From: Flectonema sp. DT1601
Lineage: Eukaryota; Euglenozoa; Diplonemea; Diplonemida; Diplonemidae
DNA length: 64,000 nucleotides
Assembly (NCBI GenBank): GCA_964019425.1
Contig: OZ025784.1
Location: 1,054,001-1,118,000, forward strand
Reading direction: 5' to 3'
In this document: positions 1 to 64,000 of the stretch, in pieces
Position numbering within the stretch: position 1 is the stretch's first letter
How the letters are laid out: each line of letters begins with the position of its first letter
Made by a program: the position numbers and the translations under genes
Notes under the pieces: model-generated
Told to the model about the DNA's origin: nothing
What the model saw: only the letters and a program-made list of their open reading frames with translations
Databases searched by the model: none

Positions 1-2895
1 AGACGATAAATCAATTGAAATTAGAGACTTACAACCACAAAGAAATCCACTACCAACGCCGGTCAGCTCATTCAAATTTGATAGTTCGATTGAAACCAGA
101 GATCTGCAACTCTGCAAAAAATGGGATCCTATGAACTTGACTCCTGTCATGCTATTGAAGTTATAAACAAACTCCAGAGAGGTACAATCACAAAGAAATC
201 CATTTCCAATTTCAGTTACGTTCTTAAAAGATTTTAAGTCAATCGTTTTTAGGGATTCGCAATTTCTTAAAAAACATTCTCCGATGGTTTTTAATTTCGT
301 AAAAGACGACAAATCGATGGCATTCAACGAACTGCAAGAAAAGAATGCAAAATCTGAAATTGACGTCACGTTGGATAAAGTGGACATCTGCTTTATGGAT
401 TGTAAGGATGAACACTCACTGAGGAATCCTTCGCCCAATTTAGATACTTTTTCAAAAGATATTTTTATCGTTGTCAGAGATGAACACCACGCCATGAATT
501 CCGATCCTACCTCAGAAAGATTTTTCAAACTCGAAAAATCAATTTCCAATAATGACTCGCAGCTTCTAAATGCGAAATCACCTATCTTTGTAACACTTTG
601 TAACCCCTCAATATGTAAAAGGGTTTTTAAAGACTTGCAATCAGCTAAAAATGAAACACCCAATTCAGTGACATTTCCAAGACCTGATAAGTCGATCGTC
701 TCTAGTTTGGAACATCCAGCAATAAACAAGTCAGGAATATTTTTTATACAGGACAAAGATGAAGTGTCAAAACTAATCAAAGAATCACAATTAAATAAAA
801 AACCTTCTCCGACACTTTCAACATTCTTCAAACAAGAAATATTACTGATGGTTTCCAGAGAGTTGCACTCGCTTAAAAAATCTTCTTTGATCTCAACAAT
901 GTTGGTGAAGACTGATAGGTCAACGTGCAACAACGATCGGCAATTATGAAGAAAAGCAATTCCAATAAACTTAATGCTTAACAAGACTGAAACATCTATT
1001 GATGTTAAAAGTTCACAAAAATTTAAAAATTGATCACCAATGTAAGATACATTTTTCAAAGTTGAAATATTTTCAATCACCGACAGTGATTTACACTTGT
1101 ATAAAAACCCATGGTTTATTTTTTCAACTTTTCCAAAAGAATTGAAATTCACAGATTCCAGTTTCGAACAGCTGTTCAGGAAGTCTTCTTCAACGAGAAC
1201 GAGTTTTTCAAAACTCGTCAGATCAATCGACGACAACGACCCGCAATCACAAAGAAATCGATTCCCAATTTCTTCAACTTTCTTTAAACAACACATTCCC
1301 TTAATAGATTTCAAAGATGAACACCTAAATAAAAACGCTCCCTCGATAACTTTCACATTTTTAAAAGCACTCACATCAATCAACTCAAGAGACGTACACT
1401 GAAATAAAAAAGCAGAAGCAATACAGGTTAACTTTCCAAACGCAGAAAGGTCTATCGCAGTCAAAGAAGTACATGAGTGTGCAAAATGAGTTCCAATTTT
1501 TTCAATATTTTGTAAACTGAAAATGTTTGAAATCGAAGTCAGAGATGTGCATTCAGATAAGAATCCATCTCCAACTCCAATGACTCCTTCAAAACCAGAA
1601 ACAGATGAAACAGAACTGCATCCGTTCATAAACACGCGTCCTATTTCTTTCAACTTGGTTAACTTTGAAACATCAATCGAAGTAAGCGACGAACACGAAA
1701 GTAAAAACTGCGATTTTATCTTCACCACATTACTTAAACCAGAAAGATTTTCTAACACTCGCAACGATGAACAACAAGAAGCGAAAGAGTCCTCTATTTC
1801 GATTACCTTTTTAAAAGCTGATAAGTCGATGCTTTCCAAAGACTCACATTTATGTAAGAAATCACGCCCAATGTGTTTAACTTCTGTCAACGCAGACATG
1901 TTTAAAATAGTAGTCAACGAACCACACAGAGCTAAAAACCCTTCTCCTATATTTGTAAGATTAGCGAACATCGACAAGTCAATAATATTAATAGAAGAGT
2001 TCTGAAGGAACTCTGGTTGGATTGTTGTAATATTTTTCATTCCAACAGTGCAGGTTATTGATTCCAAAGAACTACACGATTTCAAAAACGAAGACCCTAC
2101 GGACTCCAGATTTAGAAAACAAGAAAGGTCAACACAAGACAAACTTACGCAATATTCACAAAAAAAGCAACCAACAGACTTCACATTCTGAAGTGAATTT
2201 AAATTCTTAATATTTTTTAATGAGGAACAATCACTCAGAAAGTTTTTTCCAACACTTTTTATTTTATCAAAAACTAACAAGTCAACGGAAACAAGACTAA
2301 CACAGTGATCTAAGAAATTTGTACCAATACTGGTAACGTTTTGCAGACCGTTGAAATTTATATCAGTTAGATTAACGCAGTGGCTTGAGAATGAATCATG
2401 TATTTGAGTCACAGAACACAACCCAGAAAGAGTCAATGTTGTTATATCTGAGGATGCTAAAAAACCTTCTGAAGTCCAGTTTGCCACTAGTGGCGGATTC
2501 TCAAATGACATTTTTATTTTTATTTTTGGAATCCAAGATCCAGGAAATACAATCTCATTACCAACAACAAAGGTCGTCGTGTTAATCCGAAGTTGTTTTT
2601 GTGTGTGTTCGTGAAGCTCGCTGATCATTCTTCTTCTGACTACACTAGAAAACCATTCCTTACCAAACAACCTAATTATTGAAGCAACCAACTGACAATC
2701 AGGACCCACACCGTGTTTTGTTAATAGCGTGTCAGTCGGAAGTATATTTCCTTCAAAACTCAATTCCAAAAATTCAGAATTAGCTCCCCATTCAGCAGCT
2801 GCTTGTTGTGATATGTCACCTACTGAAGTTCGTGATGTCGACACCACTACCACATCTGAGTAACCAACATCAGGACATGAGACAATTACTTGCAT
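1..2895 (-). CDS. Large leucine-rich-repeat protein with N-terminal ubiquitin-like domain (partial, runs off left edge)
   Basis: The minus frame starting at ATG 2895 is open without a stop through position 1 (965 codons); I checked every codon. The first ~75 residues look like a ubiquitin fold (start MQVIVSCPD, then a helix, then FLELSFEGNILPTDTLL, which matches the ubiquitin strand-3 to strand-4 region). A linker of about 80 residues follows. From about residue 155 to the edge there are roughly 34 leucine-rich repeats of 23-24 residues with the pattern SLxxIxLSxFxxLxxIGxxFLxxC, which is the BspA/LRR_5 type. Such repeats serve as protein-binding solenoids and are often multigene families in protists. 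An acceptor-like TTCAG ends at 2918, 23 nt before the ATG, which supports this start. No signal peptide or membrane segment is visible in the part present. Function and partner are unknown. Confidence is high that this is coding and LRR, lower for the ubiquitin-like assignment. Confidence 0.88.
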   Translation of the reverse strand, partial: MQVIVSCPDVGYSDVVVVSTSRTSVGDISQQAAAEWGANSEFLELSFEGNILPTDTLLTKHGVGPDCQLVASIIRLFGKEWFSSVVRRRMISELHEHTQKQLRINTTTFVVGNEIVFPGSWIPKIKIKMSFENPPLVANWTSEGFLASSDITTLTLSGLCSVTQIHDSFSSHCVNLTDINFNGLQNVTSIGTNFLDHCVSLVSVDLLVFDKIKSVGKNFLSDCSSLKNIKNLNSLQNVKSVGCFFCEYCVSLSCVDLSCFLNLESVGSSFLKSCSSLESITCTVGMKNITTIQPEFLQNSSINIIDLSMFANLTNIGEGFLALCGSLTTILNMSALTEVKHIGRDFLHKCESLESIDLSAFKKVIEIEDSFASCCSSLRVLENLSGLSNVVKIKSQFLLSCSSLTSIDVSKLTKLKEIGRVFMNGCSSVSSVSGFEGVIGVGDGFLSECTSLTSISNIFSLQNIEKIGTHFAHSCTSLTAIDLSAFGKLTCIASAFLFQCTSLELIDVSAFKNVKVIEGAFLFRCSSLKSIKGMCCLKKVEEIGNRFLCDCGSLSSIDLTSFEKLVLVEEDFLNSCSKLESVNFNSFGKVEKINHGFLYKCKSLSVIENISTLKNVSYIGDQFLNFCELLTSIDVSVLLSIKFIGIAFLHNCRSLLHVDLSVFTNIVEIKEDFLSECNSLETISNISCLKNVESVGEGFLFNCDSLISFDTSSLSCIKNIPDLFIAGCSKLETIDLSGLGNVTELGVSFLADCKSLKTLLHIEGLQSVTKIGDFAFRSCESLLEIDFSSLKNLSEVGSEFMAWCSSLTTIKISFEKVSKLGEGFLSECSSLQSIKQMSTLSNVTSISDFAFFSCSSLNAIDLSSFTKLKTIGECFLRNCESLKTIDLKSFKNVTEIGNGFLCDCTSLEFVYNFNSMTGVKFIGSHFLQSCRSLVSIELSNLNELTGVGSGFLCGCKSLISIDLSS

Positions 2896-3594
2896 TTGGG
2901 TGTCTTGAATTCCCTGTCTGAACCATAAAATAATAAAGAGCAACTTTACACGAGACGCATCAAGATTTTCAGCTGTCCCTCAGAGATGGCATGGCTGAAT
3001 GGTAAATAACCAAACATCAGGACATCATAATCTACTCTGAAGTGAATTAAATATTTTTAAAATTTTCATCACCAAACTCACGAATGACGCTTCCTTGCAA
3101 AGACACACTGATACAAAAAAGAGTTAGTTTTCAAAGTACTCATTGAAAGAATCGATAAGCATGTATCAATGAATGCAAAAAAATAACGAAATCGAAACAT
3201 GCCATGAAAGAATAGGCTTATAATATAACATAAGAATTGAGAGGGGAAAACACGGTTAGACATTAGAAACACATTCACAGTTGGCTCAAACGGAAGCCTG
3301 TTGTTTTTTAATAATATAGAAATAAAGATATAGAAATTATAATGCGGCTATAGCGCATTCATTCTCCTTTGGAAGAAACTCTCGGTCTCCTCAAGGAAAG
3401 GATTCATTTGTGTGAACCTCAAGAAAGATGAGGTGATTACATATTCATTGTCACCTTTGTATATTTAGTGTGTTCTCGAATGCGCACACTGGCTACACAA
3501 AAGGGTTTACGATTTGACTGGCTGGCTGGACGGCAAACACGTCAAAATCAAATTCAAATAAGAGGGAGAGAGAATGAGAAACAGAACGAACTAC
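2896..3594. other. Intergenic spacer
   Basis: AT-rich spacer between the LRR gene and the protease gene. It holds short open frames only (for example 3078-3278 minus), which lack an acceptor-like site and have no protein-like composition. I see no RNA gene or repeat here. Confidence 0.5.
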
Positions 3595-4611
3595 TTAGTT
3601 GTTCACAACACTGTGGACAGCGTCATTGGCGAGACCACACTTGTTCTCACCACGAACGATTCTGTAGTAACCTTCCTCTCCCCAGTCAGCTGCCCATGAG
3701 TTCTTAATCTTCCAGTAGTCAACACCGTTCTCAGAACCGAATCCAACAATCAACACAGCGTGGTCGAGTTCAAGTCCAGAGCATCTCTTTGGGTTGTCAA
3801 TTCCACCCTTGTAGTCCTGCATAGGGGTGGCATTGATTCCGATGGTGATAGGTCCAACGTGAGGAAGCTGCGACTCGATCTTCGACTCACCAGAAGCGTG
3901 CTTCGACACCTGGTACCACGTCTTGATTGAAGCAGCGATCGGTTTCTCCTTCGCCTCCTTGCAAGGTTCAACAAATCCAAGCTTGCTAGTGTACGGATAG
4001 TTCTCTTCGGTAGTGAGTCCTCCTTGTTTGATCACCCATGCGAAAGCTGTCTCTTGAAGGCCTCCACCACACCCTGAGCTGGTCTTGTCACACGACACCA
4101 ACTCCTGCTCAGAAAGGGAAGTGAGTTCGTGTCCAGCCAAGAACCAAGTTCCTTCAATGTCTCCGGTGGTTCCGAAACTCCAGCAAGATCCACACTGTCC
4201 CTGGTTCTTCACCTTGGTCACTGCTCCCTTGGTGGTCCAGTCGAATGAGGTCGCGTTCTTCAGGTTGCTGAGTTCAGGGAATCTCTTGCAAGCAGTGCAC
4301 TCACCATCCCATTCCGCGACAGGCGGGTTGCTCTTCTGAAGAGGGCGGGCGCTCAAGTACGTTGCCTTGAACTCCTCAGGAGTCATATCACTGAACTTCG
4401 TGATTCCGTGAGTTGGGTTTCCGGAGACCGCAACTCTGTCGAGCGACGCCTTGAAGGCTTCGTATCTCTTCGCTTCCTCAACCTCGCTGACGTACTTTTT
4501 GTTGTACTGGTTCTTGAACGAGTCAAACGCAAGGTGGGCAACGTCATCAGCCGAGGCTGTAAGTCCGGCAGCCAGACAAGGAACCGACAAAAGGGCGAGC
4601 GACAACTTCAT
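3595..4611 (-). CDS. Cathepsin L-like papain-family cysteine protease (C1A) preproenzyme
   Basis: The 338-residue protein is a secreted or lysosomal endopeptidase. Residues 1-21 form a signal peptide. An I29 inhibitor prodomain spans about 28-85 (SFKNQYNKKY...FSDMTPEEF). The mature peptidase starts near 118. The catalytic set is complete: oxyanion Gln138, Cys143 in GQCGSCW, His284 in LDHAVLIVGFG and Asn304 in KNSWAADWG. The disulfide motif CGGG is also present. Length fits family C1A. Codons are biased to C-ending forms (GTC, CTC, AAC, TCC), unlike most neighbours, which suggests high expression. An acceptor-like CAACAG ends at 4631, 20 nt before the ATG. Cathepsin L/F cannot be separated by eye. 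Confidence 0.96.
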   Translation of the reverse strand: MKLSLALLSVPCLAAGLTASADDVAHLAFDSFKNQYNKKYVSEVEEAKRYEAFKASLDRVAVSGNPTHGITKFSDMTPEEFKATYLSARPLQKSNPPVAEWDGECTACKRFPELSNLKNATSFDWTTKGAVTKVKNQGQCGSCWSFGTTGDIEGTWFLAGHELTSLSEQELVSCDKTSSGCGGGLQETAFAWVIKQGGLTTEENYPYTSKLGFVEPCKEAKEKPIAASIKTWYQVSKHASGESKIESQLPHVGPITIGINATPMQDYKGGIDNPKRCSGLELDHAVLIVGFGSENGVDYWKIKNSWAADWGEEGYYRIVRGENKCGLANDAVHSVVNN

Positions 4612-4836
4612 ATTTTATGAGTTCGGAAAGCTGTTGTGGTGTGTTGTGTAAATAATAATCAAAAACCTAATAATTGCGTTAACAATAATTATTTCATCTA
4701 TGAGCTAATGAACTTATAATCAGTCGAACCATAAAATAATAAAATATCTATTGAGATATCAAACGATACCTTGTTTTTTTTTTTTTTTTTTTTTTTTTTT
4801 GTTGGTACTAAAAATTTCTTCTAAAGGCAGAAAGAC

Positions 4837-6711
4837 TTACAATTCTGTTTCAGGAACAGATGCCCTTTCCACAATATGAAAAGGATAAAAGATATCATCA
4901 CTCACGATTGGTAAGAAAGGCGGTGACTCAATCGCATCTCCCTCAGTACCGATGTTCGTATCTCTGATGAAGGATAGCCTCCATTGAAGAAGGAATTTTT
5001 GATTATGAGTATCATCCAAAGTATTTGTGTAGGTCCACGTTGAATAAATAGGAGTTCGTTTAACCCCAGCAATAACATCTTGTGGATTGTAAACCTTCCC
5101 AGTCCTTCTAAGGACGACAGTGTACTCGTATCCGACTAAGAATTCGCAACTACTTCTCACGGTTCCCATGAATGACGTTCTGTCAGATTGTGGTGGACTC
5201 TGTTTTTTTATACGTTTTTTTTTTTTTTTTTTCAAAAAAACGAACAAAAAAAAAAAAAAAAAAAAAAAAAAAGCAACAATAACACAAACCACTACAGTAG
5301 TCCAATCTTCAGCAGTCGCTGGATTACTGTTAGCAAAAGCAGCAACAGAAACAGGAAGTGCTGCTGTCTGTGTTGGTAGAACTCTATTAAGGATACCTTC
5401 TCTACAGGATTCAGTAAATTGTTGTTTATTAAGAGTCACGAGACATCCACTTGATGAAATATCAAATAAGAACTTAACCTGTCGAGTACCAGCAGTAGCA
5501 CAGTCATGTCCAAAAGGAAGAGACAACAACCCAGTAGGTGTCCTAATTTGATCACCTTTTACATATCCTGGAGCACCACTGTATCCAGGTATAGGTAGAA
5601 GAGCTAAGTCGGTGTTCTTGTCTAACCAAGCAACACCATAGTTTTGAGAAAACGAGTTGGTATTTCGTTGGATAGTTGCTGTTCTGATAATGATGTTAAA
5701 GTTTAAGAATGAAATCCCTTGATTGACTGGGTACTCAGATTTGATTGAAATTTGAACCGACTGAACAGCGTTAATACAAGTACCTGTTGCTTCGTCAAAA
5801 GTAGTTTGAACAGCAGGATCGAGTGCTGCTCCACTACTATCAAAGATAGTTACTACCGCTGCTAATGATCTTGCTCCAAGGTTTGCTCCTGTTAATTCAG
5901 GACCCTCAGGAGGCGCGACTCCTAAACTTAACCATCTTGATATCGCTAACAGTGGAGATGTACATTGTTGTCGTAAATTAGTAATCAATCTCAGACAACT
6001 ATTACTCTCAAGGATTACATTCCTAAGGAAGTATGCTGGAGTTGCATCACTACAGATTCCATTCAATGGCCTCGGTAGTATTAAATACGGTAGTGCAGTT
6101 GGAGTTGGTGTTAATTTCACAGCTGTGACTCGATCACCAACTCGATACCACACTCCCGGAAGTACATTGCCGGAGTTCGGTTGATTTCCTGCTGATGGAG
6201 GAGATGTCCAATCACCGTTGAAAGTTTCTCTGTCGTAGTTCCAAACATTTCTAAAACGTGTCTCAGATTCTATAGCCGTAATACTTTCAACTGTCGATAA
6301 AGGATTTACTGTGAGTGGATTATTGTAAGAAGAGTCATCAAGTCCAAGGTTGTCGTGAACTATGCAGACGGTACTCTTTTCAGCTTCTGTGTTCCTTGTT
6401 GCGATCTGTCTTGAATAATATTCATCTTCTGTGTTAACAATTGCTTCAACACTTCCTGTCGGATTTATATAAAAAGGTTCGAGTAGCGACACTGGAGGTT
6501 CGGTACATTTGACACCTTTCTTGTCTCCGTATTTCTCCCTCCTACATTTCGTAAACGCTAAAAATATTGTCCTGGAATCGCAGTCCGTGTCGCAACAGCA
6601 ATTCGCATCGCAATATGCTTCTGTAAAGTCACAGATACAGTTTCCAGTTCTGTCAACTGTTTGAGTGTTCACAAGTAATAACAGTGACAGGGATGCTACC
6701 CAGATCTTCAT
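4837..6711 (-). CDS. TCTN: Tectonic family ciliary transition-zone protein (likely one 96-nt intron)
   Basis: The protein has a signal peptide (1-18) and then a cysteine block, CICDFTEAYCDANCCCDTDC, which is the hallmark of tectonics (DUF1619). A long extracytosolic domain follows that includes the KFLFDISSSGC segment typical of the family. Tectonics belong to the MKS/B9 complex that gates the ciliary transition zone. The frame is open for 624 codons, but residues ~473-504 are a poly-Phe then poly-Lys run encoded by T and A homopolymers. This 96-nt piece (5295..5200) starts GTAGTG, ends AAACAG, and lies in phase 0, so I read it as a retained intron in the frame; the spliced product would be 592 residues. 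If it is coding, it would act as a membrane anchor with a basic tail. An acceptor-like TTTTCACAG ends at 6731, 20 nt before the ATG. Confidence 0.88.
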   Translation of the reverse strand: MKIWVASLSLLLLVNTQTVDRTGNCICDFTEAYCDANCCCDTDCDSRTIFLAFTKCRREKYGDKKGVKCTEPPVSLLEPFYINPTGSVEAIVNTEDEYYSRQIATRNTEAEKSTVCIVHDNLGLDDSSYNNPLTVNPLSTVESITAIESETRFRNVWNYDRETFNGDWTSPPSAGNQPNSGNVLPGVWYRVGDRVTAVKLTPTPTALPYLILPRPLNGICSDATPAYFLRNVILESNSCLRLITNLRQQCTSPLLAISRWLSLGVAPPEGPELTGANLGARSLAAVVTIFDSSGAALDPAVQTTFDEATGTCINAVQSVQISIKSEYPVNQGISFLNFNIIIRTATIQRNTNSFSQNYGVAWLDKNTDLALLPIPGYSGAPGYVKGDQIRTPTGLLSLPFGHDCATAGTRQVKFLFDISSSGCLVTLNKQQFTESCREGILNRVLPTQTAALPVSVAAFANSNPATAEDWTTVVVCVIVAFFFFFFFFLFVFLKKKKKKRIKKQSPPQSDRTSFMGTVRSSCEFLVGYEYTVVLRRTGKVYNPQDVIAGVKRTPIYSTWTYTNTLDDTHNQKFLLQWRLSFIRDTNIGTEGDAIESPPFLPIVSDDIFYPFHIVERASVPETEL

Positions 6712-7048
6712 TTTATTGTTTTATACCTATCTGTGAAAATATAAATAAGATAACTGAAGTAGTAGTAAATATAACTCAACAGAGGTGTTCCCTTCTAAAA
6801 GGATTTCGTATCAAAGAGAAAGAGAAAGAGAGGACAAGTAACTCATTGGAATTGATACCACAACTGTTTAAGTTATGGAAAAGATCAACAGGTTAGAAGA
6901 TCCAACAGGTCGTTACTATGAGGGGGATACTCTTTGTTTTGAATTATTAATAAATTTAATCAAAAGTACGATAGTTAAAGGACGACTTGATTAGCCAGCT
7001 AGGGTTAGATTAGCCAACAGGAAGAGTCTTTATAAATAATAGAATAGC
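6712..7048. other. Intergenic spacer
   Basis: This AT-rich spacer upstream of tectonic contains the tectonic acceptor-like site at 6731. I see no other gene or repeat. Confidence 0.45.
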
Positions 7049-7432: not shown

Positions 7433-7725
7433 ATTAATCAGGAGGTTGTATTCCTGTGATGCGAGGAAAATAAAAAAGTACAAATAAAAAAAAAAAAAAA
7501 ATTAAAAAAAAAAAAAACAACAAAAAACACCAAATCGCCGTCAGAAAAAAAAAAATAATTATTTTCAATTTACTTCAATACTTTTTTTTTTTTTTTTTTT
7601 TTTTTTTCCAAAGTATGTTTTTTATAAAGTAGGGCTGCCATAAGGCTGACCTGATAGGTTTAACGAAAATACAGCGACTATGATTTTACAAGTCATTAAA
7701 GCAACGAAGTTAGAATGAGGATACA

Positions 7726-12524: not shown

Positions 12525-13584
12525 GAGACTGTGAAGGAAAAAAAGGAAAAAATATATATAAAAAAATATATCTTATATCACTTTATAAAGTTAATGGCCC
12601 GATCGTTGAGCAGTGCATCTTCCTATCAAAACCGCTAGAGCGAATCATAAGATAACACCTGCTTTTGAATGCGGCGGCCTTGAAATGGGAAGGGGGGAAA
12701 AGGAGGGGACTTGGATAAATAAATCAAGGGGGAGTACTATAATTGAAGGCGCCAATAAACATCAGCAATGCAAAAAAAAAAAAAAATACAAAACTTTTCA
12801 CGCGTGCTGAAAGGGTTTAATATTTCGTGTGGGTGATATCCTTTGTAATTCATTTTATCTTTTTTCTTCTTCTTTTTTGTCATACTTGTAAGTTTTTTTT
12901 TTTTTTTTTTTTTTTTTTCCTTTTTTTTGCGACCGAAAAAAAAAGTAAGGGGAGAAGGGACTTGTTGGTGAACAAGAAAAGCAAACAGCAAACTTGCGAA
13001 AAAATAAAAAAGCCAAAAAAAAATGGCCAACAGTCACACTGGTCTTGTTTAGAAATTATACTCAAGGATCACTCGCGGTAAAGTATCCTAAAAGTGGAGC
13101 AAAAACTATCAAAGAAACCATTTTGCAAACAACGAGGAAGCTGCCTCTTCTCTATAGCTAGCAGTTTTAAGACAGCTGCAGCTGAAGAACCAATCAACAG
13201 AAGTAGTAAGGGGTGAAACTTTGACAATGTAAAAACAGTAACAACTTTAACGTATTAATACAAAATTAACATCAAAAGTACTCAACTGAAAAAAAACATT
13301 TGTAGTTTGTTAATCAAAGAAAACGCTCCTAAACATAAAAAGGGAAATTATATGTTTATAGTATAGAGGGGAAAAAAGAGAGGGGGAAAAAAAAATAGAC
13401 CGAAACACAATAAACAAACGTAAGTAAAACATGACATAAAAGTGGGGAATCTTTTTTTTTTTTTGCAATGCAACTACCAACAATAAACCAAACTATGATA
13501 TTTATTCAGAATGAACTAATAATGTTGCTGATCAGTCGAATAATGGCAAAGAAAAAATCGACGAATGATTTAATTTTCTTTTTT
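12525..13584. other. Gene-free, low-complexity spacer
   Basis: About 1 kb with several A or T runs, for example a T run near 12893-12918. Open frames here (12737-13081, both strands) are made of homopolymer codons and I do not accept them as genes. Confidence 0.5.
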
Positions 13585-14853: not shown

Positions 14854-15564
14854 TTTATACTGATAGCTGAAGTAAATATAAATAACAACAACAACTCAAC
14901 ACCATTCAATTCGATACGTAACCTGATCATTAACGGAAGGCATCCTGTTCTCAGAATGGGTACATCACTATGTCCCTTAAAATAGAAATATCATCATCAC
15001 GTGTCCTAAAAGCCTCCGCTGTGCGAGCAACCCACAGCCACCGAAATTTAAAAAAAAGAAACCGTTCATTAGCCTTATATTTCGTTGATCCTGTTGTGGG
15101 AAAATAAATATCGGCTTTCATTCTGAACAGTTTCCTTTACATCGGTACAAAAAAAAAAAAAAAAAAAAAAAAAAATCAACAGCTGATTGTTAACTCATTA
15201 AAGTCATGCCTCGTAATAAATAATGTGGTTTGTCAACAATAATTGACGTGTCGTATTGTAAACTTTGCAAGAAGAAAAAAAAAAAAAAAAAAATGGCAAA
15301 ATACAGAGTTAGAAAAATAGAAGCTAGGTTGTTTGGTAAAAAATAAGAAAAGAAAACGACCGAGTTATTTCGGTGCAGCCAACAACGTTATTTTTATCTT
15401 GTCCACCAGTCGCGATCTAGACCAGGTTGAGGCAACCATGAGGATTACGAGATGATGCTGAAGGAAATACCGATAGCAGCAGACATTGCAGTGAATTCAA
15501 CCAACAAAAAGAAAACCCCCCCAAATAAAACACGCGAATAATTCATTCCGTCTTAGAAATGAAT
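14854..15564. other. Intergenic spacer
   Basis: The spacer has A runs at about 15149-15174 and 15273-15292 and the peroxidase acceptor-like site at 14867. I see no gene, RNA or repeat that I can support. Confidence 0.45.
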
Positions 15565-18058: not shown

Positions 18059-18297
18059 TTTGATGTGAATAAATATCTGATTAGAAAAATATTACTTTTT
18101 GATGATGTACTTTTTTATTGTTTTTGCTCTAAGTTTGCGTATTTCACAATTAAATAATTTTTTTTTTTTTTTTTCTAAATAAGTAATAACTAATAAATAC
18201 AATTAAATAATAACTTTTTTTTGTTTTCTAATCTACGAAAACTCGTGAAGAACTTACATAAAAACTGATTTTCCAAACTTCTTCTTTTTTTTTTTTT

Positions 18298-22175: not shown

Positions 22176-22666
22176 GGTTATTTTTTTTTTTTTTTTTTTT
22201 TTTGCTTAACGCTTGCTACTACTATCTAGAGGGGGTGAAAATATAACTCTCCATCATTACTCTTTTTAATGTCCACAGCTGTTTGTTACATCAATCAAGG
22301 TTGTGATCATCTATTCACACGCTGTTTTTAAATTATTGAAAATAATAAAATACTCTTTTCATCAACACATAACACAAGTTAAAAAGTTTTATGTACACTT
22401 ACCTGACTGCCAATATGAATAGGATATGGTAATGGCTAATTAATTGTGTGTCTCATCACATACACATACATACATAACACACAGCACACACATATACACA
22501 ACCAGCGGAATAATAGGAGAAATTTAATCACATGACTAGTGAGGCAGGCGCGCATAGAAACAAATAAAAAATAATAATAATAATAATAATAATACACCAA
22601 AGGACAAGACCGAGGTAAAAGAAAAAAAAGAAAATCAAACAATTCTAACGAGTAAATCTTCCAAAA
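22176..22666. other. Intergenic spacer
   Basis: Leader of the Sly1 gene (poly-A run at 22181-22203 on the minus strand) and AT-rich sequence with a TAA/ATT microsatellite at 22570-22593. No gene is supported. Confidence 0.5.
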
Positions 22667-23320: not shown

Positions 23321-23414
23321 ATCGTAATTTGTTGTTGCCTGATCAAAAAAAGGTTAATATCCCTAATAAAATATTTGCTACGAGAAAAAAATTTATTAAA
23401 AGCATAGTAACAGT

Positions 23415-26317: not shown

Positions 26318-27020
26318 CAGTTGCAAATTTGTTTTTTCAGGTTGGAACAGGCGGGCTTTTATTAGGGGGGGGGGGGCTTGCACTCTTCCCAGCCAAGTAG
26401 GCTAAAAAACAAAAAACCCGCCGCAAGCCAATTTTTTGGGTCAAGTTCGAGTCCTGGTGGACAACTTTTTTTTTGTAGGGAGTTGGCGATTTCGCAAACT
26501 ATTTTTGTTGAATTAGAGGTTTTCCCAAAAAAATAATAAAAAAAAAAAAAAATAAAAAAAAAAAAATTATTATCAGTCCTCAGTAGTACAGAGGTCAGTA
26601 CATCAATCACATTGCTGCTCAGCAGCGAAGTATTACTTGATGACCCAGGTTCGAATCCTGGCTGAGGATAATTTTTCAAAAAAAATGCCTCCTGAAATAA
26701 GATATTTGCGGATAATTTTTCAAAAAAAAAAAAAAAAGAGAAAACTTCCCTAATTCCCAAAAGTTTGAAATCGCAAACTCTCAAAAATAAGCTCTCAAAC
26801 AAAAAATCCGCCGCAAGCCAAATATTTGGGTCAAGTTCGAGTCCTGGTGGACAACTTCTTTTTGTTGAATTAGGCAAAAAAAAAATTACACACCTATTGT
26901 TTTCTTGTAATCCTCGGTAAACTCGCCTTTGCAATAACGGGTCAACATTGATGACTTACCAACTTCACCATTCCCTACAACAATTACCTTACAAGTGGTA
27001 TCCACACTGTCGCACTGCAT
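24398..27020 (-). CDS. RAB23: Rab23-type small GTPase, four exons
   Basis: I assembled four exons: 27020-26894, 25106-24947, 24876-24540 and 24475-24398. They total 702 nt (233 residues) in frame. Introns start GTGTGT, GTATGT and GTATGC and end CAG; their lengths are 1787, 70 and 64 nt. Visible motifs are the P-loop GNGEVGKS (16-23), the switch I region CKGEFTEDYKKTIG, WDTAGQE (65-71), the Rab23-like FSTIDRESFEAIEKW, and a QTKMDL guanine-specificity motif in place of NKxDL. The basic C-terminus ends CSIL, a CaaX-type prenylation box, which is unusual for Rabs but known for Rab23. Rab23 acts in ciliary membrane traffic. The QTKMDL Asn-to-Thr change is notable. An acceptor-like CACCCCTCAG lies ~20-25 nt before the ATG. 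Confidence 0.93.
26414..26858 (+). repeat. Pair of ~54-bp direct repeats with a B-box-like core, inside Rab23 intron 1
   Basis: Segments at about 26414-26467 and 26806-26858 are nearly identical (core GCCGCAAGCCAA, then GGGTCAAGTTCGAGTCCTGG and TGGACAACTT). AAGTTCGAGTCC resembles a Pol III B-box. Sequence just before the first copy (AGCCAAGTAGG, 26389-26399) resembles an A-box. The pair brackets the tRNA-like sequence at 26577-26669. This suggests tRNA-derived SINE-like material. Confidence 0.6.
26577..26669 (+). tRNA. tRNA-like sequence (degenerate or intron-bearing), within Rab23 intron 1
   Basis: On the plus strand TCCTCAG pairs perfectly with CTGAGGA as an acceptor stem. TA, a GTAC/GTAC D-stem with an AGAGGTCA loop, a four-base variable region and a perfect T-arm (CCAGG TTCGAAT CCTGG) follow. 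The anticodon arm is the weak part: TCAA/TTGA can pair, but the enclosed 28-30 nt include a GCTGC/GCAGC hairpin and no clear U33-anticodon. It could be an intron-containing tRNA gene or, more likely, a tRNA pseudogene or SINE head. I cannot assign an amino acid. Confidence 0.45.
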
Positions 27021-28755: not shown

Positions 28756-29083
28756 CAAAAATACGTTTTTTGTATACTTGCGACCTGTGAAAAGAATTAA
28801 GCATTAGAAAAAAAGAAAAAAAAACATTTTCAGATTTTTTTTTATAGTTTTTTCAAAAAAAACAACCTCTAATATAATAATCTAACTGAACGGTAATCTA
28901 AATGTTTGTGTTGTACGAACGGAAAACAAAAAAAAAAAAAAAAAACTATTGGACGTCACATCCACCTCCATCCTGACTGCTTGTTAACGCATCGAGAATA
29001 GTATTTCTGAGTCTCTTTATGCTGTCCTGTTGTTTTGATTAGGTAGCGTTGTTTGATTTATTAAAATAATATAGGTTTTGATA
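28756..29083. other. Intergenic spacer
   Basis: The spacer holds the acceptor-like site of the DUF4116-like gene and short A/T runs. Nothing else is seen. Confidence 0.5.
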
Positions 29084-30289: not shown

Positions 30290-30328
30290 TTGTGGTAACC
30301 TGATGAATTGAAAAATATAATTGATACT

Positions 30329-36965: not shown

Positions 36966-37817
36966 AATTTGTCTTTTTTTTTTTTTTTTTTTTCTGTTGG
37001 AAAAAAATTTAAAAAACAAAATACAATTCACTAGCAGGGGATTTGTCTCGTTCGGATGTCAAACAAACAAAAATAAATAAGTTAGTTGGTATTTAATATA
37101 AATCGGATTTATCAAAAAAATCAATCAAATCAAACAAATCGTGAGGGCAAAGAAGTTATGGTTGCTTTTCGGGCTAAAATTAAAAAGATCTTTCCCCGGA
37201 CCATTCCTCTTACCCAGCCTTCTTCAGCGAAGAAAGCAACGGGGACACTGCGTTGTCAGGCCTGTTCCAGAAGTGTTAGTTTTTGAGAGTATTAAAAAAT
37301 TGCATTTCAGAAGGGAAGTCAGCGAAGTCAACACCCCTGGGGAAGCCCACGGGGTACGAGTTATTTGGTACGACAACCATGGGACTCTCACAGGGTTATT
37401 ACCAGAGTGAAAACATAAAATAAATTGTTCCGTTGGTATCAATACTTAATCTAAACGTATACTATGAGTCGCTGTAACAGAGGACTCAATCCATAAGTAT
37501 AGATTGTTGAATTACCTTCAACTAAAGTACTTCTACCTTGATTCTGTATATTTTATTGTTTTAGAAGGAGAGACCGTGTGACTCACCAGCTTCAGAAGAG
37601 GAATGAAGAAATGACCTTTCGCATTAAATACGGAAAGATATTCAAGAGTGTGTGAAAGGAGATTAATCGTTTGATTTAACAATCTGGTTAAGGTGTGTAC
37701 ATTAGTGTTCACACATGGATGAAAACATTTGAAAATATCTACTTTTTTTTGTACAGTTTGAATTCCCTTGCAATTGCTGTTATTTTTCAGGTGATCAATT
37801 ATTGCTCTCACAACTTC
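36966..37817. other. Spacer between paralogues 2 and 3
   Basis: Contains the A20 leader run of member 2 and R1 copy A. The minus frame 37533-37811 is in the same frame as member 3 beyond its stop codon; I do not accept it as coding. Confidence 0.5.
37166..37270 (+). repeat. R1 dispersed repeat, copy A
   Basis: Blocks TTTTCGGGCTAAAAT, GGACCATTCCTCTTA, CAGCGAAGAAAGCAA and GACACTGCGTTGTCAGGCCT match copy B at 63.07-63.17 kb in the same order and spacing. Confidence 0.85.
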
Positions 37818-38507: not shown

Positions 38508-39391
38508 TTTATATGTTCCGTGTATACCACACTGTTGGTCAGAAAGATTAATTTAGAAAAGCTTAACTGATAGTGATTAGAGTCAAGCAAGAACGATAGC
38601 AACAACTGCAATTATTGTTTTGTTTTGTTTTGTTTGTTTTTTCTCGATAACTAAATACCTGAGGAATGTTATAAATAAGTGAAACAGCAACTACGCAACT
38701 TTTCTTAATAAACTAACTCGATTTCCCGTTTTTTCGATATCATTAACCAGATGTAGTTTTGTAGTACCTCGGCTACATTTGTTGCTATTGGGCAATTTGC
38801 GCGCCTGCTGCCATCCTTAGATGTGGTAGCCGTTTCTCAGGCTCCCTCTCCGGAATCGAACCCTAATTCCCCGTTACCCGTTACAGCCACGGTAGTCATA
38901 TCATCCCTGCAAAAGAAGACAATATAAATACTCACCAGATGTTACTTAAATCCAAATGTGGTACACTTTTAGAAACCTGAGACATAGATACAGGGAACAT
39001 TCTTAAAGTAAACACATACAGTTTTTTTTTTTTTTTTTTTTTTTTTTGGCCGATCTATGTCGATACTAGACTTGTTTAATATGCGAAAATATAATAAATA
39101 CCTTCCTCGGTCTTCTTATAAAGTATATGTTTTTCCGACAACAAAAAAAAGGAAGTCTAGTATGAAGCATTGCATAAATAAAGAGAGGAAGGAAAAAAAA
39201 AAAAAACAACTCCATACTGCACAAACCCATTGACGAGCACGAGTAGAATACGGTATGAGAAATGAAAACTGGTCCACTATACGATTGAAAGGCAAGAAGG
39301 TTAAGCGACATTTGGGGGGCAAGCCTGTGAAATATCACAAAAGCTTTAAAAAAAAAAAAAAAAAAAAAAGAACGCTGCTTTTGTTTGAAAC

Positions 39392-39429
<38 letters not shown>

Positions 39430-40423: not shown

Positions 40424-40495
40424 TTTTGAAAAGTGTTTTTTTTTTTTTTTTTTTTAAAGATAACAAAATAGCTGAGGAAAATAATAAATAAATTT

Positions 40496-43375: not shown

Positions 43376-43509
43376 TTTTTATAAAAGAAATAACAGATCT
43401 GTGAAAGAAAATACAGTAAAGCAATCGGCAGAATAAATAATTTTTCCTTGTTTTTTTTTTTTTTTTTTTTAGATTTTTTTCTATTTTCTATTGTGGGGCT
43501 TAAAGAGGG

Positions 43510-44787: not shown

Positions 44788-44801
44788 CTATTTGTTAGTA
44801 G

Positions 44802-46599: not shown

Positions 46600-46681
46600 G
46601 ATAGTGTTTGTGTTGTCTGGAAAATGTAAAACAAAAATAAAGACAACAATTAAAACATAATTCACCAAATGAAAAACAGCC

Positions 46682-58750: not shown

Positions 58751-58885
58751 TAAAGTAACTATTAGGTTTCGAGAGTAATCCATATACCTCTTACCTCTAT
58801 TCTCTCTCATCAGTATGGTGTAGAAGTAGAAGTAAGTCAGTCAAATGTTGAGACTAGTTTGCGGTACTGAAATGTAGTTACTTTA
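58751..58885. mobile_element. MITE-like element, copy 1 (135 bp)
   Basis: It begins TAAAGTAACTA and ends TAGTTACTTTA, a perfect 11-bp terminal inverted repeat. The inner left half (TTAGGTTTCGAGAGTAATCC and ACCTCTTACCTCTATTCTCT) recurs in copy 2 at 62.8 kb. No coding capacity; a plain DNA-transposon-derived MITE is the best guess. Confidence 0.7.
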
Positions 58886-59217
58886 AGTTTCATGTTCATA
58901 ATAAAAAACATATTATTTACTGTTACTAGTTCGTAGCTCACTACAGGAGAGGATTATTGCCATAACAGTGAGGGGACAAACTAATCCCTTTTTTTTTTTT
59001 TTTTCTACTATTTTTCATCGAAAACGGCGATAAGTCCGATTTTAAGTAGAAAAAAAAAAAAAAAAAAACAGCAATAACAAAAAAAAAGAAATAAAATTAA
59101 AATAAATACCATTGTTAGATTTGCGGAGGAAGCAATTTTTTTTTCTCTCTTTTTTTGTTTTTCATAGTTTTTTTAAAAATGAAAATGAGAACCTTTTTTG
59201 TCAGTCATCTAATAAGT

Positions 59218-59280
59218 AAGCCGCTTTTCAGGCTCCCTCGAACCATAATTCCCCGTTACCCGTTACAGTCGTGGTAGTAC
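59218..59280 (-). pseudogene. Second, degraded 18S rRNA fragment (~63 bp)
   Basis: The minus strand reads GTAACGGGTAACGGGGAATT, ATGGTTCGAGGGAGCCTGA, AAAGCGGCT. It corresponds to the core of the fragment at 38.8 kb but lacks about ten bases (the ATTCCGGAGA part) and carries substitutions. It is an older or faster-decayed copy of the same small-subunit rDNA segment. Confidence 0.82.
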
Positions 59281-60023: not shown

Positions 60024-60075
<52 letters not shown>

Positions 60076-60339
60076 GGATTTAAGGCTAATAAATGAATGC
60101 AAGTTTCGGGAGTACATCATTTTTTCCCTCGGGTAACCTTCTTTTGGGCTCTTAATGCGCCTACACATTAATAAGGGCCAAATGAAAATTGTATTTTGGC
60201 GGAGTAAACGATGTAACCCTCCACTTGTTGTTAATTTCAATATTTCGGTCGTACTTTAAAAGTTTGTTTTCCAGTTTAGAAGCAAAAAGGTAAAGTACTT
60301 CTGATATTAATTTTAATGTTTACAAAATATATTCCCACG

Positions 60340-61386
60340 CTATATTCTCTGAACAGATAAATTTCGAGATGAATGCGTTAGGATTTGTTGAACAGGTGAT
60401 TTTGGTGGGAATTGTTTAGATGAAGGAGCTGTTGGTGTGCCCGTGTGCGTATAGGAGAGTGTTTGTCTCATATAGCGTATCTGTTCTTCCATATCTAATT
60501 TCAGTTCACGAAAACGATGTCGAACACGTTGTGAATCATCCTCGATCTGACGTTCCGCCATAGAAGTTGAAACAGATCTCCGACGTTGTTTCACATTTTG
60601 AACTTGAACAGTACCTCTAAGACTCGGTGTCACACTAATCTCTCTAGCAGGAGGATTAAAAACCGGATTTAAGTGCCAAGGAGGAACACCAAACGTGTTT
60701 GATGTACCCTTCTGGATCTGAGGAGGAGGAGTCAATATAACAGGAAATGGTATAAGAGGTGGAGTCTTTTTGATCGTCTCTTCACCATTACTGTTACAGT
60801 TTGCATTGCTGTTCCTGAAGCTCATGTTCTCCAACTCAATTTCATCTGACTTTGCGCTTACTGTTTTTACTTCATATTGGGTACTGATTTCAGTGACATC
60901 GTCTTCCCAGCTTAGCTTTTCATGTAACAAGGTTAATCTATTCCCTTGAGCAGACTGCAATCTACCTAATAATACAAAGGTAACGATCCCAGCTATAAAC
61001 AACACGGCACCCGCAGACAAAAATACGATTAACCACTCCAGTGTGTTAGGTTGTTGTTGTACGCTGCTCAGGACATTCTCTTTTTTTATGCGCGCTAGAA
61101 CCTCCGAATCTAATGCAGGGGGGGAAATTGATACTAAAATTAAATGGAAAGCAACTTCAAACTGGCAAAAACGAGAATAGGGTTCGGCCAAACCTGGTTG
61201 CAATATAAGAAATCAACTGTTGGTATCGATAAAAAATCCCATATATGTGCTGTCGAATATGGGGATTCGGGGGCCACGTACAGGGGGGAAATTAATACTA
61301 AAATTATGAAACTTGAAACAAGTAAGAAAAGTAATTTCGGGGGGTGAGAAAAAGATGAAGCAAGCAAAATAAAATAAAATACGCAT
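60340..61386 (-). CDS. Single-pass membrane protein, two exons, unknown function
   Basis: I assembled exons 61386-61299 and 61133-60340 (88+794 = 882 nt, 293 residues) around an intron 61298-61134 (GTATTA..TTTTAG, 165 nt). The N-terminus (MRILFYFACFIFFSPPE) is a signal peptide. A transmembrane helix follows at about 75-97 (LEWLIVFLSAGAVLFIAGIV), and then a ~195-residue cytosolic tail rich in Pro, Thr and Arg with a short coiled coil (RVRHRFRELKLDMEEQIRYM). The intron's ends lie within a direct repeat (see repeats). Without splicing, the frame opens at 61203 and lacks a signal peptide. An acceptor-like GCGATCAG lies 23 nt before the ATG. No family recognised. Confidence 0.7.
61115..61312 (-). 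repeat. Direct repeat at both ends of an intron
   Basis: On the plus strand CAGGGGGGGAAATTGATACT plus AAAATTA (61115-61141) and CAGGGGGGAAATTAATACTA plus AAATTA (61282-61307) are nearly identical, ~167 bp apart. The donor GTATTA falls in the upstream copy and the acceptor TTTTAG in the other, so splicing removes exactly one repeat unit. Confidence 0.8.
61239..61285 (+). repeat. R3 motif, copy in intron
   Basis: TGTGCTGTCGAATATGGGGA, TTCGGGGGCCACGTAC. The same motif occurs at 16807-16846 (TGTGCCGTCGAATATGGGGA, TTCGAGGGCCCTGTAC). Here it lies inside the repeat-bounded intron. Confidence 0.8.
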
Positions 61387-61601
61387 GTTGTCAACGTCGT
61401 ACCGTACTGATCGCACATAATATTTTAAAACCGAGTAGGGGGGGAACAACTGTAACACAAATCGATGATTAATTTCGAGATCGACTCCGTTGAAGTGTCT
61501 CTCTAGTTGATCGTATATTTTTCCCATGTTATGTATCCTGTGTTAGTGACACGAATACACTTCCCAGCAGCCGACCAAGTATAATTGGAGTTAACTTCTG
61601 T

Positions 61602-61730
61602 TTCGGGAATTCCTGTGAAGGGGTGAAGTACAATGGGGTTAACGAATCACTTGCATAGGGTTCGGTACTAATGGTCAAAAATCAGAAAACCCTCTTTACG
61701 AACACAACACACACACACAGGTTTTTGCTT
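61602..61730 (-). repeat. R2 leader-associated repeat, copy 4
   Basis: The minus strand contains TGTACTTCACCCCTTCACAG followed by GAATTCCCGAAAC, and upstream TTTCTGA and CCCTATGCAAGTGATTCG. It lies about 215 nt upstream of the two-exon membrane-protein gene. Confidence 0.8.
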
Positions 61731-62770
61731 TTTTTGTAAGTAGGACTCGACTTCAAGAGCAAAGGAAAAGGGAGAAAGAAAAAAAACACTTGAGGGGCAA
61801 AAAAAAAAAAAAAACGGAATTGTGAATTGTGATGTTAGGTTAATTATATTTTTCTTCCATCCAAAAGAAAGTGTTTGGATGCAAAAAAAAATTAAACATC
61901 ACTGTTGTCAATTTACAAACAATTTTTTTTAAAAAAAAAAAAAAACTCGCAAGTAGACACTTGGAAAATAAAAAAAAAAAACCAAAAATAAACAAAACAA
62001 ACCCAAAAACGATAAACGTTTGAAACCAACAGCGTCAAGCCAGATCTCGGGCGACAAGCTGGAATGGTGCGGAGACAAAAGAATACGAGCTTATAGATAA
62101 CGGGTCTAGTACATTACGTATGTAGACCAAATCTTGTCTAGGATTATTATGTAGCTAAGCTGTCGTTGGAATGGAAAGATCAGATACATAATCTGGGAAA
62201 CAACAGCCAGACAATTAACAACACTAAAGCAACCTCTTCTTCTAAGCTATTCCAACGTAAAAAAAAAGACGTCAAAAAATTAACTGTCTTTAATTCAGAC
62301 GAATACAGAAAACTAAAATAGATAACTAACTTCAGCAACACACATGACCCACTTATGTTACCAAAACTTGTTAAGTAAAGCAACCTGATGGTTGTTTTTT
62401 TCTTTCTTTTTTTTTTTTTTTTTTTTTTTTGCTCTTTTTTTTTTTTTTTTTAATTAGAAACCACATTACACAACCGACACGAGCTACAGAGTGAATAGCT
62501 TCTCCAATATATCAAGCACACATTCGATCGCGTGCTGGGGTAATTTTGATCCGATACGAAAAGATTTATCTGGGAAGAATACAGGGCTGAGGTAGGGGAA
62601 AGAACGAGCAAAAAAAAAAAAAAAAAAAAAAAAATGGGGGAAAAGGAAAAACGGGGGGGAGGTTAATTCTTTGATTTTTGCAAAATAAATTACAACCGTA
62701 TTGTACCACATTAACATAAACGATAAATTTAGCAATCAACTGTGAACTACTGTGACTTAACTTACTCTTT

Positions 62771-62894
62771 TAAAGTAACTATTTAGGTTTTCGAGAGAAT
62801 CAATCTACCTCTTTACCTCTATTCTCTCATCATCAGTAATAGTGTGAGTCTGAATAACCTTCAGTTAAGGCAAGTCTGGAGTGTAATTACTTTT
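62771..62894. mobile_element. MITE-like element, copy 2 (124 bp)
   Basis: Starts TAAAGTAACTA and ends TAATTACTTTT, a slightly decayed terminal inverted repeat. The left 65 bp is about 85% like copy 1; the right half has diverged more. Confidence 0.65.
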
Positions 62895-62966
62895 CAAAAA
62901 ATATGATCCTAAGAAAAATCTTATTATTGTCATCTTAATTACAGTTGAATACAGTCACAGCTCGTG

Positions 62967-63021
62967 GTAACAAGTTAGTATTAATAATTATCGTAGTAAC
63001 AAGTTAGTATTAATAATTATC
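62967..63021 (+). repeat. Perfect 26-bp tandem duplication
   Basis: GTAACAAGTTAGTATTAATA plus ATTATC occurs twice, at 62967-62992 and 62996-63021, with a 3-bp spacer. The copies are identical, so the duplication is recent. Confidence 0.9.
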
Positions 63022-63174
63022 AGTCAATCAAAAAAAAGGCAAAAGTTCGTAGGACAACAAACAAGTTGGTTTCGGGCTAAGATGAAAAACAATCTTTCTT
63101 CGGACCATTCCCCTTATCCAGCCCTCTTCAGCGAAGAAAGCAAGGGGGACACTGCGGTGTCAGGCCTGTCCTAC
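63022..63174 (+). repeat. R1 dispersed repeat, copy B
   Basis: Longest R1 copy. Blocks: AGTCAATCAAAAAAAAGGCA, TTTCGGGCTAAGATG, GGACCATTCCCCTTATCCAG, CAGCGAAGAAAGCAAG and GACACTGCGGTGTCAGGCCT. The first block also resembles 34287-34332. It is followed by a TTAG microsatellite. Confidence 0.82.
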
Positions 63175-63656
63175 AACAACAAGTTAGTTAGTTAGTTATC
63201 AAGTCCATCAGACCACCGAGTATCGGTTAGGTAGACACTCAAAGAGTACCGGGTGGCTCTTCTGAACAAGAAACCTTTAACTACTTCAGAGCTAATTATA
63301 AATAACGGAACATTATTCAATGCTCAGTGAAAAGAAGATGAAGATTGATATCATTTTCTTAAGAAAAATGAATACCGTAAATAAACAAACACCATTAAAA
63401 AAAAACTAATCAAAACAAAACAAAAAACAAGAATTTTTTTTTTTTTTTTTTTTCGATGATAAAAAAAGACAGTTAATCTCAGCACAAAATACACAGTTTC
63501 AGATGTCAAAGGAACCGTGGCACATCCATTGCACATTCATCAAAAGGAAAGAAAATTGATAATCCACAAATGCCCTCGTCATAGCAGAGACAGGCTCTAT
63601 TTATGAATAAAATTTATAAATAAAATAATTTTGAAACAGCCGTGAAGCAGCTTCAA

Positions 63657-64000
63657 CTAGTCATATCCACTCAAGTATTTCCTGTAAGCTTTGTAATTAG
63701 TAACCCATCCAACCATGAAACTATTTACCTGATATGAGGTAAGTGTAATTGACCCGATGTGGTCATAATCAGCAGGCGCGTCCTCACTAACGACAAATGG
63801 CTCAGACATAGCAGTTAGTGAAAAGTCATACTTTGCAACCATTACGAAAGAACGACGGGCGAACTTATCATAAGCCACCCAGGCAACTACAATATAGTCA
63901 ACCAGTACTAGTACCTTCGGCTCAGTTGTTGAAGCTATGTTGGACCAGATAACAAACTGAATAGAATTAGGAACGACGTTACTAGAAAAGTCGATTTTAA
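63657..64000 (-). CDS. C-terminal part of an unknown protein (runs off right edge)
   Basis: The minus frame is open from the window edge to the stop at 63657, giving at least 114 C-terminal residues. It alternates hydrophobic and polar residues in strands (VLVLVDYIVVAWVAYDKF, SFVMVAKYDFSLTAM, DHIGSITLTSYQVNSFMVGW), which looks like a beta-rich, possibly propeller-type, domain. No motif identifies a family. There is no internal ATG near the start of the visible part, consistent with a truncated gene. Confidence 0.65.
   Translation of the reverse strand, partial: KIDFSSNVVPNSIQFVIWSNIASTTEPKVLVLVDYIVVAWVAYDKFARRSFVMVAKYDFSLTAMSEPFVVSEDAPADYDHIGSITLTSYQVNSFMVGWVTNYKAYRKYLSGYD

Follow-up and report, generated by a model that had tools for sequence, protein, structure and literature searches.

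The window analysed here, a stretch of 64,000 nucleotides on contig C5, lies inside a long run of genes with one orientation. All 29 open reading frames (ORFs) overlapping it in a codon-model set, from which frames scoring below threshold are excluded, are on the minus strand, in agreement with the original prediction that all genes of the window share one strand. A Pfam family above the cut-off was found in 13 of 29 minus-strand frames of at least 150 amino acids, and the five plus-strand frames of the window gave no Pfam match at E <= 0.001. Acceptor-like sites had been proposed at 17 positions upstream of these genes. Sixteen are exactly the last G of a CAG or TAG located 0-50 nt before the ATG, and the remaining one, placed at 7452, belongs at 7454. 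The gene run and the sites are listed below.

At least C5:1,004,013-1,207,974 (window 1..64000 included), minus strand: one-way gene run, read as a polycistronic unit, from codon-model ORF calls
2918..2920, minus strand: acceptor-like CAG, 22 nt before ATG 2895 of an LRR protein
4631..4633, minus strand: acceptor-like CAG with weak pyrimidine tract, 19 nt before ATG 4611 of a papain-family protease
6731..6733, minus strand: acceptor-like CAG, 19 nt before ATG 6711 of a tectonic-like protein
7454..7456, minus strand: acceptor-like CAG, 21 nt before ATG 7432
12529..12531, minus strand: acceptor-like CAG with 17/18 pyrimidines, 4 nt before ATG 12524
14867..14869, minus strand: acceptor-like CAG, 13 nt before ATG 14853 of a haem peroxidase
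18077..18079, minus strand: acceptor-like CAG with 10/18 pyrimidines, 18 nt before ATG 18058 of a NUBPL/ParA ATPase
22226..22228, minus strand: acceptor-like TAG with 15/18 pyrimidines, 50 nt before ATG 22175 of Sec1
23339..23341, minus strand: acceptor-like CAG, 18 nt before ATG 23320
28785..28787, minus strand: acceptor-like CAG, 29 nt before ATG 28755 of a ubiquitin-like/DUF4116 protein
30300..30302, minus strand: acceptor-like CAG, 10 nt before ATG 30289
36994..36996, minus strand: acceptor-like CAG, 28 nt before ATG 36965
38532..38534, minus strand: acceptor-like CAG, 24 nt before ATG 38507
40472..40474, minus strand: acceptor-like CAG, 48 nt before ATG 40423
43399..43401, minus strand: acceptor-like CAG with 14/18 pyrimidines, 23 nt before ATG 43375 of an aldo/keto reductase, lying in the 134 nt between the tubulin-family gene and this ATG
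44788..44790, minus strand: TAG with weak pyrimidine tract, abutting ATG 44787 of the tubulin-family gene
46617..46619, minus strand: acceptor-like CAG with 15/18 pyrimidines, 17 nt before ATG 46599, lying in the 82 nt between the upstream frame's stop and this ATG

Two gene pairs had been described as about 82 nt apart. One such pair exists (stop 46682, ATG 46599), with no Pfam family in either frame, and no second pair at that distance was detected; the next-closest gap is 134 nt (stop 43510 to ATG 43375, acceptor 43399), between two genes that are both supported by Pfam. A YAG with at least 12 of 18 pyrimidines lies within 100 nt ahead of 20 of the 29 window frames and is missing from the other nine. 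Enrichment was measured for ORFs of at least 250 amino acids over 254 kb around the window, counting a YAG after at least 14 of 18 pyrimidines within 70 nt of the start. Such strong acceptors occur at 17 of 60 starts, but eight of these starts belong to copies of a single tandem gene, and without these copies the figure is 9 of 52 (17%). In the controls the rate is 1.5% for internal in-frame ATGs (3 of 200), 4.1% for shuffles (43 of 1040) and 6.9% for ATGs on the wrong strand (224 of 3234), with Mann-Whitney p values for the starts without tandem copies of 6e-9, 1e-7 and 4e-6 respectively. The acceptor signal at gene starts is therefore real but moderate, and it is weaker once the tandem copies are removed. 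TTTTCAG is not enriched on the sense strand of the minus run (27 vs 33), and the strand asymmetry of GT motifs is weak. Base composition across the genome is AT-rich, and runs of T and of A are numerous on either strand. A splice-pair scan of the window gave no convincing cis intron (two candidates on the minus strand, one on the plus strand), and ARAGORN reported one doubtful tRNA there (26576-26670, plus strand).

According to the codon-model ORFs the minus-strand run around the window extends over about 204 kb of C5 and ends in a convergent switch. Convergent unit ends and outward-pointing units are features of kinetoplastids. Plus-strand frames at C5 1,173-1,197 kb (eight of 108 amino acids and one of 153) were considered as strand switches and rejected; they are read as shadows cast by a tandem gene array on the minus strand, and make up 9 of the 21 plus codon-model calls. 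Genome-wide, the layout was followed with marker genes, a set of best-scored candidates in which same-family matches within 2 kb were merged (299 to 287). Among the best-scored matches listed, neighbouring markers 20-100 kb apart agree in strand in 60 of 61 pairs, those less than 20 kb apart in 28 of 29, where tandem paralogues inflate the closest pairs, and only 2 of 90 neighbour pairs less than 100 kb apart disagree. Of the 63 markers among the same matches that fall in the outer tenths of contigs, 62 face the contig end, with the lengths of 8 contigs interpolated from their neighbours in a length-sorted list. Both the C5 run and the genome-wide markers thus present long one-strand gene runs with few switches.

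The genome contains tandem arrays of 5S rRNA genes on C16, repeating every 623 bp, and on C20, repeating every 610 bp, and within them a 39-nt spliced leader (SL), AACCAACGATTCTAAAGCTACAGTTTCTGTACTTTATTG, is encoded. Its exact 3' end is found about 247 nt downstream of the 5S gene in 24 of 24 5S genes on C16. The SL exon is followed by a GT donor (GTACAG) and a 72-nt tail ending in GGGG ahead of a T run, which suggests an SL RNA about 111 nt long with a predicted 3' end; its fold has a z score of -3.2, 1 of 200 shuffles folds equally well, and no Sm-protein site was assigned to it. At the DNA level this is a multi-copy SL RNA gene with a short exon and a GT donor. Rfam applied to a 3,120-base piece of the C16 array detected 5S but neither U2 nor an SL family; the SL was therefore identified by visual inspection. 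The 3' half of the SL has 727 matches with at most one mismatch (reversed control 0). Since many of these are SL RNA genes, a match to the SL is not by itself the sign of an mRNA. Compared with nine euglenozoan SLs from the table in PMC3795323, where three entries with ambiguity letters were left out, the leader differs from one at 2 of 39 positions and from the others at 7-11.

The joining of this leader to a message is seen in an intronless retrocopy of a kinase gene (C17:649271), which carries 39 of 39 SL nucleotides followed by 1043 nt with one mismatch to the parent. The parent gene, on C18 from 600140 downward, reads TTCCAG at the junction, and in the retrocopy the leader is fused exactly after that AG. 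GT-AG cis introns are present in this genome, four of them in the kinase parent (72, 75, 68 and 74 nt), and all four are absent from the retrocopy. One retrocopied kinase mRNA has thus undergone both leader-to-AG joining and cis-intron removal. The SL exon is joined to further sequences as well, which may derive from other mRNAs; all of these are genomic copies rather than cDNA.

We interpret the window as part of a long polycistronic unit with SL trans-splicing in a euglenozoan flagellate, most likely a diplonemid (probability about 0.97). RNA polymerase II would presumably transcribe the entire run from a distant start. The 5' exon of the SL RNA, from the tandem 5S-rRNA/SL-RNA repeats, would be trans-spliced to a YAG ahead of every coding sequence, probably including the sites listed for the window. 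By analogy with kinetoplastids, the upstream message would be cut and polyadenylated along with trans-splicing, and ordinary GT-AG cis introns would be removed from the same transcripts. The start and end of transcription and the cap structure are parts of the scheme that we infer. The original prediction, polycistronic transcription and trans-splicing with cis introns kept, is supported by the SL RNA genes, the strand runs and the kinase retrocopy. Its proposed checks also came out in favour: tandem SL RNA genes are present in the 5S arrays, strand runs continue beyond the window in the C5 run and in the agreeing marker pairs listed, and a common 5' sequence at acceptors exists for one cellular gene, the kinase outside the window, as read from its genomic retrocopy. 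DNA alone can thus settle that leader trans-splicing exists alongside cis introns in an unannotated protist genome, and the leader sequence obtained is a means to map mRNA starts.

Paraflagellar rod proteins mark Euglenozoa. The family PF05149 has 27 matches in the genome and none in 14 control genomes, all prokaryotes; the organism is euglenozoan. It is probably a diplonemid: the 5S-SL repeat and the leader are of diplonemid type, the latter with 2 of 39 differences from the entry 'Euglenozoa 14', which we take to be Diplonema although it is listed without a species name. It is unlikely that the same mechanism belongs to a deep kinetoplastid or another euglenozoan instead, a reading to which 39-nt SLs sharing this 3' half, listed for many Euglenozoa (PMC3795323), lend some weight. 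Linkage of 5S and SL occurs in other groups too (PMC10161547). Against that reading stand the nearest SL entry with its two differences, the four introns in one kinase gene compared with their near absence in kinetoplastids (PMC7052976), and the very different euglenid leader, 28 nt in Eutreptiella (PMC3621762). The 28S rRNA is unsplit in Diplonema and split in kinetoplastids and euglenids (PMC10161547); the LSU rRNA here is one continuous match, which speaks in the same direction, although such a match is no test of processing. The 18S rRNA sequence was also read from the genome.

The acceptor-like sites might instead be 3' ends of cis introns in 5'-UTRs, with a separate promoter and a locally encoded first exon for every gene. 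GT-AG cis introns do occur in the genome and both kinds of acceptor look alike, but this explanation is very improbable given that SL RNA genes are present as tandem arrays, that the kinase copy bears the SL and no local exon at its acceptor, and that gaps of 82 and 134 nt in a one-strand run of about 204 kb leave little room for promoters and exons. A chance strand run on a T-rich background, with the SL-like repeats as a satellite or SINE without a role in mRNA, would suit the base composition and the moderate enrichment without tandem copies but is hardly credible beside the strand agreement and contig-end polarity of the markers, the enrichment over three controls and a cellular kinase mRNA with the SL at the exact parental AG, which refutes it unless the copy is an assembly artefact.

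Exact SL sites followed by A, C or T number 81 (control 0), sites inside one locus being counted singly. Of these, 25 were read, in 22 loci; 19 have SL stretches of 37-39 nt that continue into differing sequences, and in 11 of the 22 loci the downstream sequence is common to another read SL locus, as in repeat families; these may be retroelements. Among the insertions read, only the kinase one is tied to a cellular parent gene, the other joins being seen without parent comparison. The 254 kb around the window hold a single SL copy, outside the window itself, and no leader-tagged copy of any window gene was encountered. The outer tenths of contigs hold 37 of the 81 sites, 36 of which point outward like the genes. 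Leader relics begin exactly after AGs within an older leader, AAAG/CTACAG in locus L041 and ACAG/TTTCTG in L042. A tentative explanation is that trans-splicing also serves as 5'-end repair of promoterless retroelements. These would be transcribed by read-through in polycistronic units, where trans-splicing at an AG would supply a new leader of full length, and would then be reverse transcribed with it and reinserted, often near chromosome ends. The relics after internal AGs may then be a record of repeated rounds.

According to the excerpts of PMC10161547, Diplonema papillatum shares with the present genome unidirectional gene arrays, a 39-nt SL, an SL RNA gene in tandem with 5S rRNA, GT-AG cis introns, dispersed rRNA fragments and chromosomes apparently of about 0.5-1.8 Mb. 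Its SL is found on essentially all mRNAs, a system to which the one here is likened. Its genome is larger (about 280 Mb against 89.5 Mb here), and its 5S/SL repeat unit includes U2 snRNA, whereas Rfam detected none in the unit here. A chromosome-scale assembly of D. papillatum was still awaited according to that paper, and those excerpts contain no mention of SL-tagged retrocopies. Kinetoplastids likewise have polycistronic units, start sites between divergent units, a pyrimidine tract before the AG and a 39-nt SL (PMC6597758, PMC9639853, PMC4041458) but are nearly without cis introns (PMC7052976), in contrast to the four in a single gene here. In dinoflagellates, as here, mRNA is recopied into the genome with its leader, and stacked relics mark repeated rounds, as they may do here, but their leader is 22 nt, unrelated and from another lineage, and their SL retrogenes number thousands against 81 exact sites here, one tied to a cellular parent (PMC6050394).

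SL trans-splicing was known from this group before, and its occurrence in this genome is a confirmation. The new points are the outward-pointing terminal gene runs, the leader-tagged insertions with their relics and an end-linked repeat. Because the terminal gene runs point outward and the insertions share their orientation, one can test directly how one-way transcription, trans-splicing and the spreading of insertions are linked. Four consecutive copies of TTAGGG had no exact match, and six 16-mers drawn from the end repeat had no match in the papers searched. The repeat, GGGTTTGC, is linked to contig ends in an unusual polarity and is worth a check.

The original prediction, that mRNAs of this one-strand gene cluster receive a trans-spliced leader, was right both in what it observed and in its interpretation, apart from small corrections. 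The spacers of the tandem 5S rRNA gene arrays on contigs C16 and C20 hold AACCAACGATTCTAAAGCTACAGTTTCTGTACTTTATTG, then GTACAG and then a 72-nt tail ahead of a T run; the leader exon with GTACAG answers the proposed search for tandem genes for spliced-leader (SL) RNA. Only one of 200 shuffles folds as well as the 111-nt stretch of leader and tail. The nearest leader tabulated for comparison is one that we take to be from Diplonema, the table passage itself making no such statement. In the excerpted table of PMC3795323 one euglenozoan leader is 2 positions away from the leader here, and the 8 other compared leaders show 7-11 differences. Diplonema papillatum has a 39-nt exon and a 75-nt intron in a repeat linked to 5S, according to the excerpted text of PMC10161547. 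Among the matches listed, the array at G000:C20:1,248,419-1,287,266 has a 610-bp step, interrupted by steps of, for example, 1,085 bp (5S) and 1,695 and 3,267 bp (SL), and this irregularity suggests inserts or altered units.

The leader is found joined to a message at a locus on C17 that carries a protein kinase frame. Apart from missing introns, the 1043 nt that follow the leader differ at a single position from a gene on C18. Four GT-AG introns of the parental gene (72, 75, 68 and 74 nt) are absent from the copy, and the parent reads ...TTTTTTATCAAATTCCAG exactly at the point where the leader starts in the copy. The C17 locus is an mRNA copied into the genome after both trans-splicing and cis-splicing. 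The expected common 5' sequence at an acceptor is thus seen at the parental AG in a genomic copy of one gene, the sole copy and parent pair examined, and the four introns of the parent agree with the proposal that cis introns are kept beside trans-splicing. The copy diverges from its parent 3' of the stop codon and enters a GC-rich tandem repeat (L143, C17:650301-650950), with no poly(A) seen at this 3' junction.

Paraflagellar rod genes gave 27 matches in the genome and none in 14 control genomes, all prokaryotes; together with the leader, they identify the organism as a euglenozoan. Within the Euglenozoa, a diplonemid is favoured by the four introns in one gene, the continuous 28S match, the leader and its linkage to 5S. 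The gene-expression system is the one expected for a euglenozoan and is already described for D. papillatum in the excerpted text of PMC10161547.

The window, G000:C5:1,054,001-1,118,000, belongs to an assembly of 89.5 Mb in 92 contigs. Across 254 contiguous kb of C5, 95 open-frame stretches passed the codon-score threshold: 12 on the plus strand up to C5:1,002,452, 74 on the minus strand from C5:1,004,013 to 1,207,974, and 9 further plus calls, all of them short frames that lie opposite a tandem array on the minus strand or next to it. The plus and minus runs converge at about 1,002.5-1,004.0 kb. All 29 above-threshold stretches overlapping the window are minus, as the one-strand claim had it. 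The window has 29 minus frames of at least 150 aa, 13 of them with a Pfam family above its cut-off; none of its five plus frames has a Pfam match. Other features in and near the window are as follows.

Window 4774-4800, long A/T run
Window 5246-5277, long A/T run, within a tectonic-like frame
Window 7582-7605, long A/T run
Window 39349-39420, long A/T run
Window 38758-39007, minus strand, small-subunit rRNA fragment; 131 bp with 98% identity to the rDNA arrays
Window 59219-59278, minus strand, small-subunit rRNA fragment; 78% identity to part of the fragment at 38758-39007
C5:1,173,728-1,196,575 (stretches L025-L027), minus strand, tandem array of 8 gene copies with a frame of at least 496 aa

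The runs, of A or of T, are examples among many and also occur between genes. Scattered rRNA pieces also occur in D. papillatum (excerpted text of PMC10161547). The step of the tandem array is 2,951 bp in 5 of 7 steps; Pfam matches of its gene are weak and all under cut-offs, the nearest being a CUB domain.

Acceptor-like sites had been proposed before most genes. Sixteen of the 17 positions named are exact CAG or TAG ends, and one was 2 off and should be 7454. A YAG with at least 12/18 pyrimidines lies within 100 nt in 20 of the 29 window frames, which is most of them, not all. At 14/18 pyrimidines or more, a YAG precedes 17 of 60 starts, eight of these being copies of one tandem gene, and 9 of 52 when those copies are excluded; control rates are 1.5% for internal ATGs, 4.1% for shuffles and 6.9% for wrong-strand ATGs. 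Starts differ from these three controls with p values between 6e-9 and 4e-6. The acceptor signal at starts is real, though moderate. The closest well-supported gene pair, tubulin-family and aldo/keto reductase, has a 134-nt gap with an acceptor within, and an 82-nt gap separates two frames that both lack a Pfam family.

Strand runs were also seen elsewhere in the genome. Family matches to protein kinase (132), DEAD helicase (38) and kinesin (129) were collapsed to 287 markers. Neighbouring markers share a strand in 28/29 pairs less than 20 kb apart (tandem paralogues included), 60/61 at 20-100 kb, 29/37 at 100-200 kb, 21/46 at 200-400 kb and 11/34 beyond 400 kb, so the 20-100 kb pairs bear out the suggested check on other contigs. 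All 25 markers in the first tenth of contigs lie on the minus strand and 37 of 38 in the last tenth on the plus strand, and terminal gene runs are therefore directed toward the contig ends, a side result of some interest. Strands are mixed in contig middles; along contigs, changes are divergent in 47 cases and convergent in 11. C5 lacks a simple two-arm pattern because of its convergent switch.

With at most one mismatch, the leader's 3'-terminal 20 nt occur 727 times genome-wide (reversed control, 0). Exact copies followed by A, C or T number 81 and are therefore not intact SL RNA genes. They are oriented like the genes near contig ends, minus in 19/19 in the first tenth and plus in 17/18 in the last. 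Twenty-five of the 81 were read, in 22 loci; 19 have 37-39 nt of leader joined to various sequences. In 11 of the 22 loci the sequence downstream recurs at another of the loci read, as in repeat families, and these families may be retroelements. Locus L041 has a complete leader and, after it, a copy starting CTACAG, the start expected from a splice after AAAG within the leader. In L042 the first leader is partial and the copy after it starts TTTCTG, as expected from a splice after ACAG, and the arrangement recurs 63 bases further on. These relics stand ahead of a repeat family, and L043 and L047 hold additional partial copies. Comparable relics are known in dinoflagellates (excerpted text of PMC6050394); no euglenozoan case appeared by title or abstract in the literature searched, which mostly excluded subscription papers. 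At L059 (C33:50231-51071) the stretch preceding the leader looks, by eye, like the flank of the SL RNA gene, and an unrelated frame follows the leader; an element may have been inserted here where the exon of an SL RNA gene ends. Such leader-tagged insertions are likewise of some interest as a side result.

Contig ends carry (GGGTTTGC)n at 40 of 60 sampled left ends and (GCAAACCC)n at 12 of 19 sampled right ends, the latter mostly on contigs chosen for their left-end repeat (examples are L065, L122 and L136); none of these ends showed the opposite form. All 25 forward array break-points lie within 28.7 kb of left ends, and for 16 of 18 reverse ones a right end is no more than 18 kb away; of the other two, one is interior (C32:612155) and one is on C88, a contig without a known length. 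At the terminus the G-rich strand presents its 5' end, the reverse of a usual telomere; this polarity is also a side result of some interest. Either the true telomere is missing and the repeat is a subtelomeric satellite, or the repeat is itself a telomere, one whose 3' strand is C-rich. Four consecutive TTAGGG units occur nowhere in the genome, and a telomerase RNA-binding domain is found at C7:904589 (E 2.5e-10).
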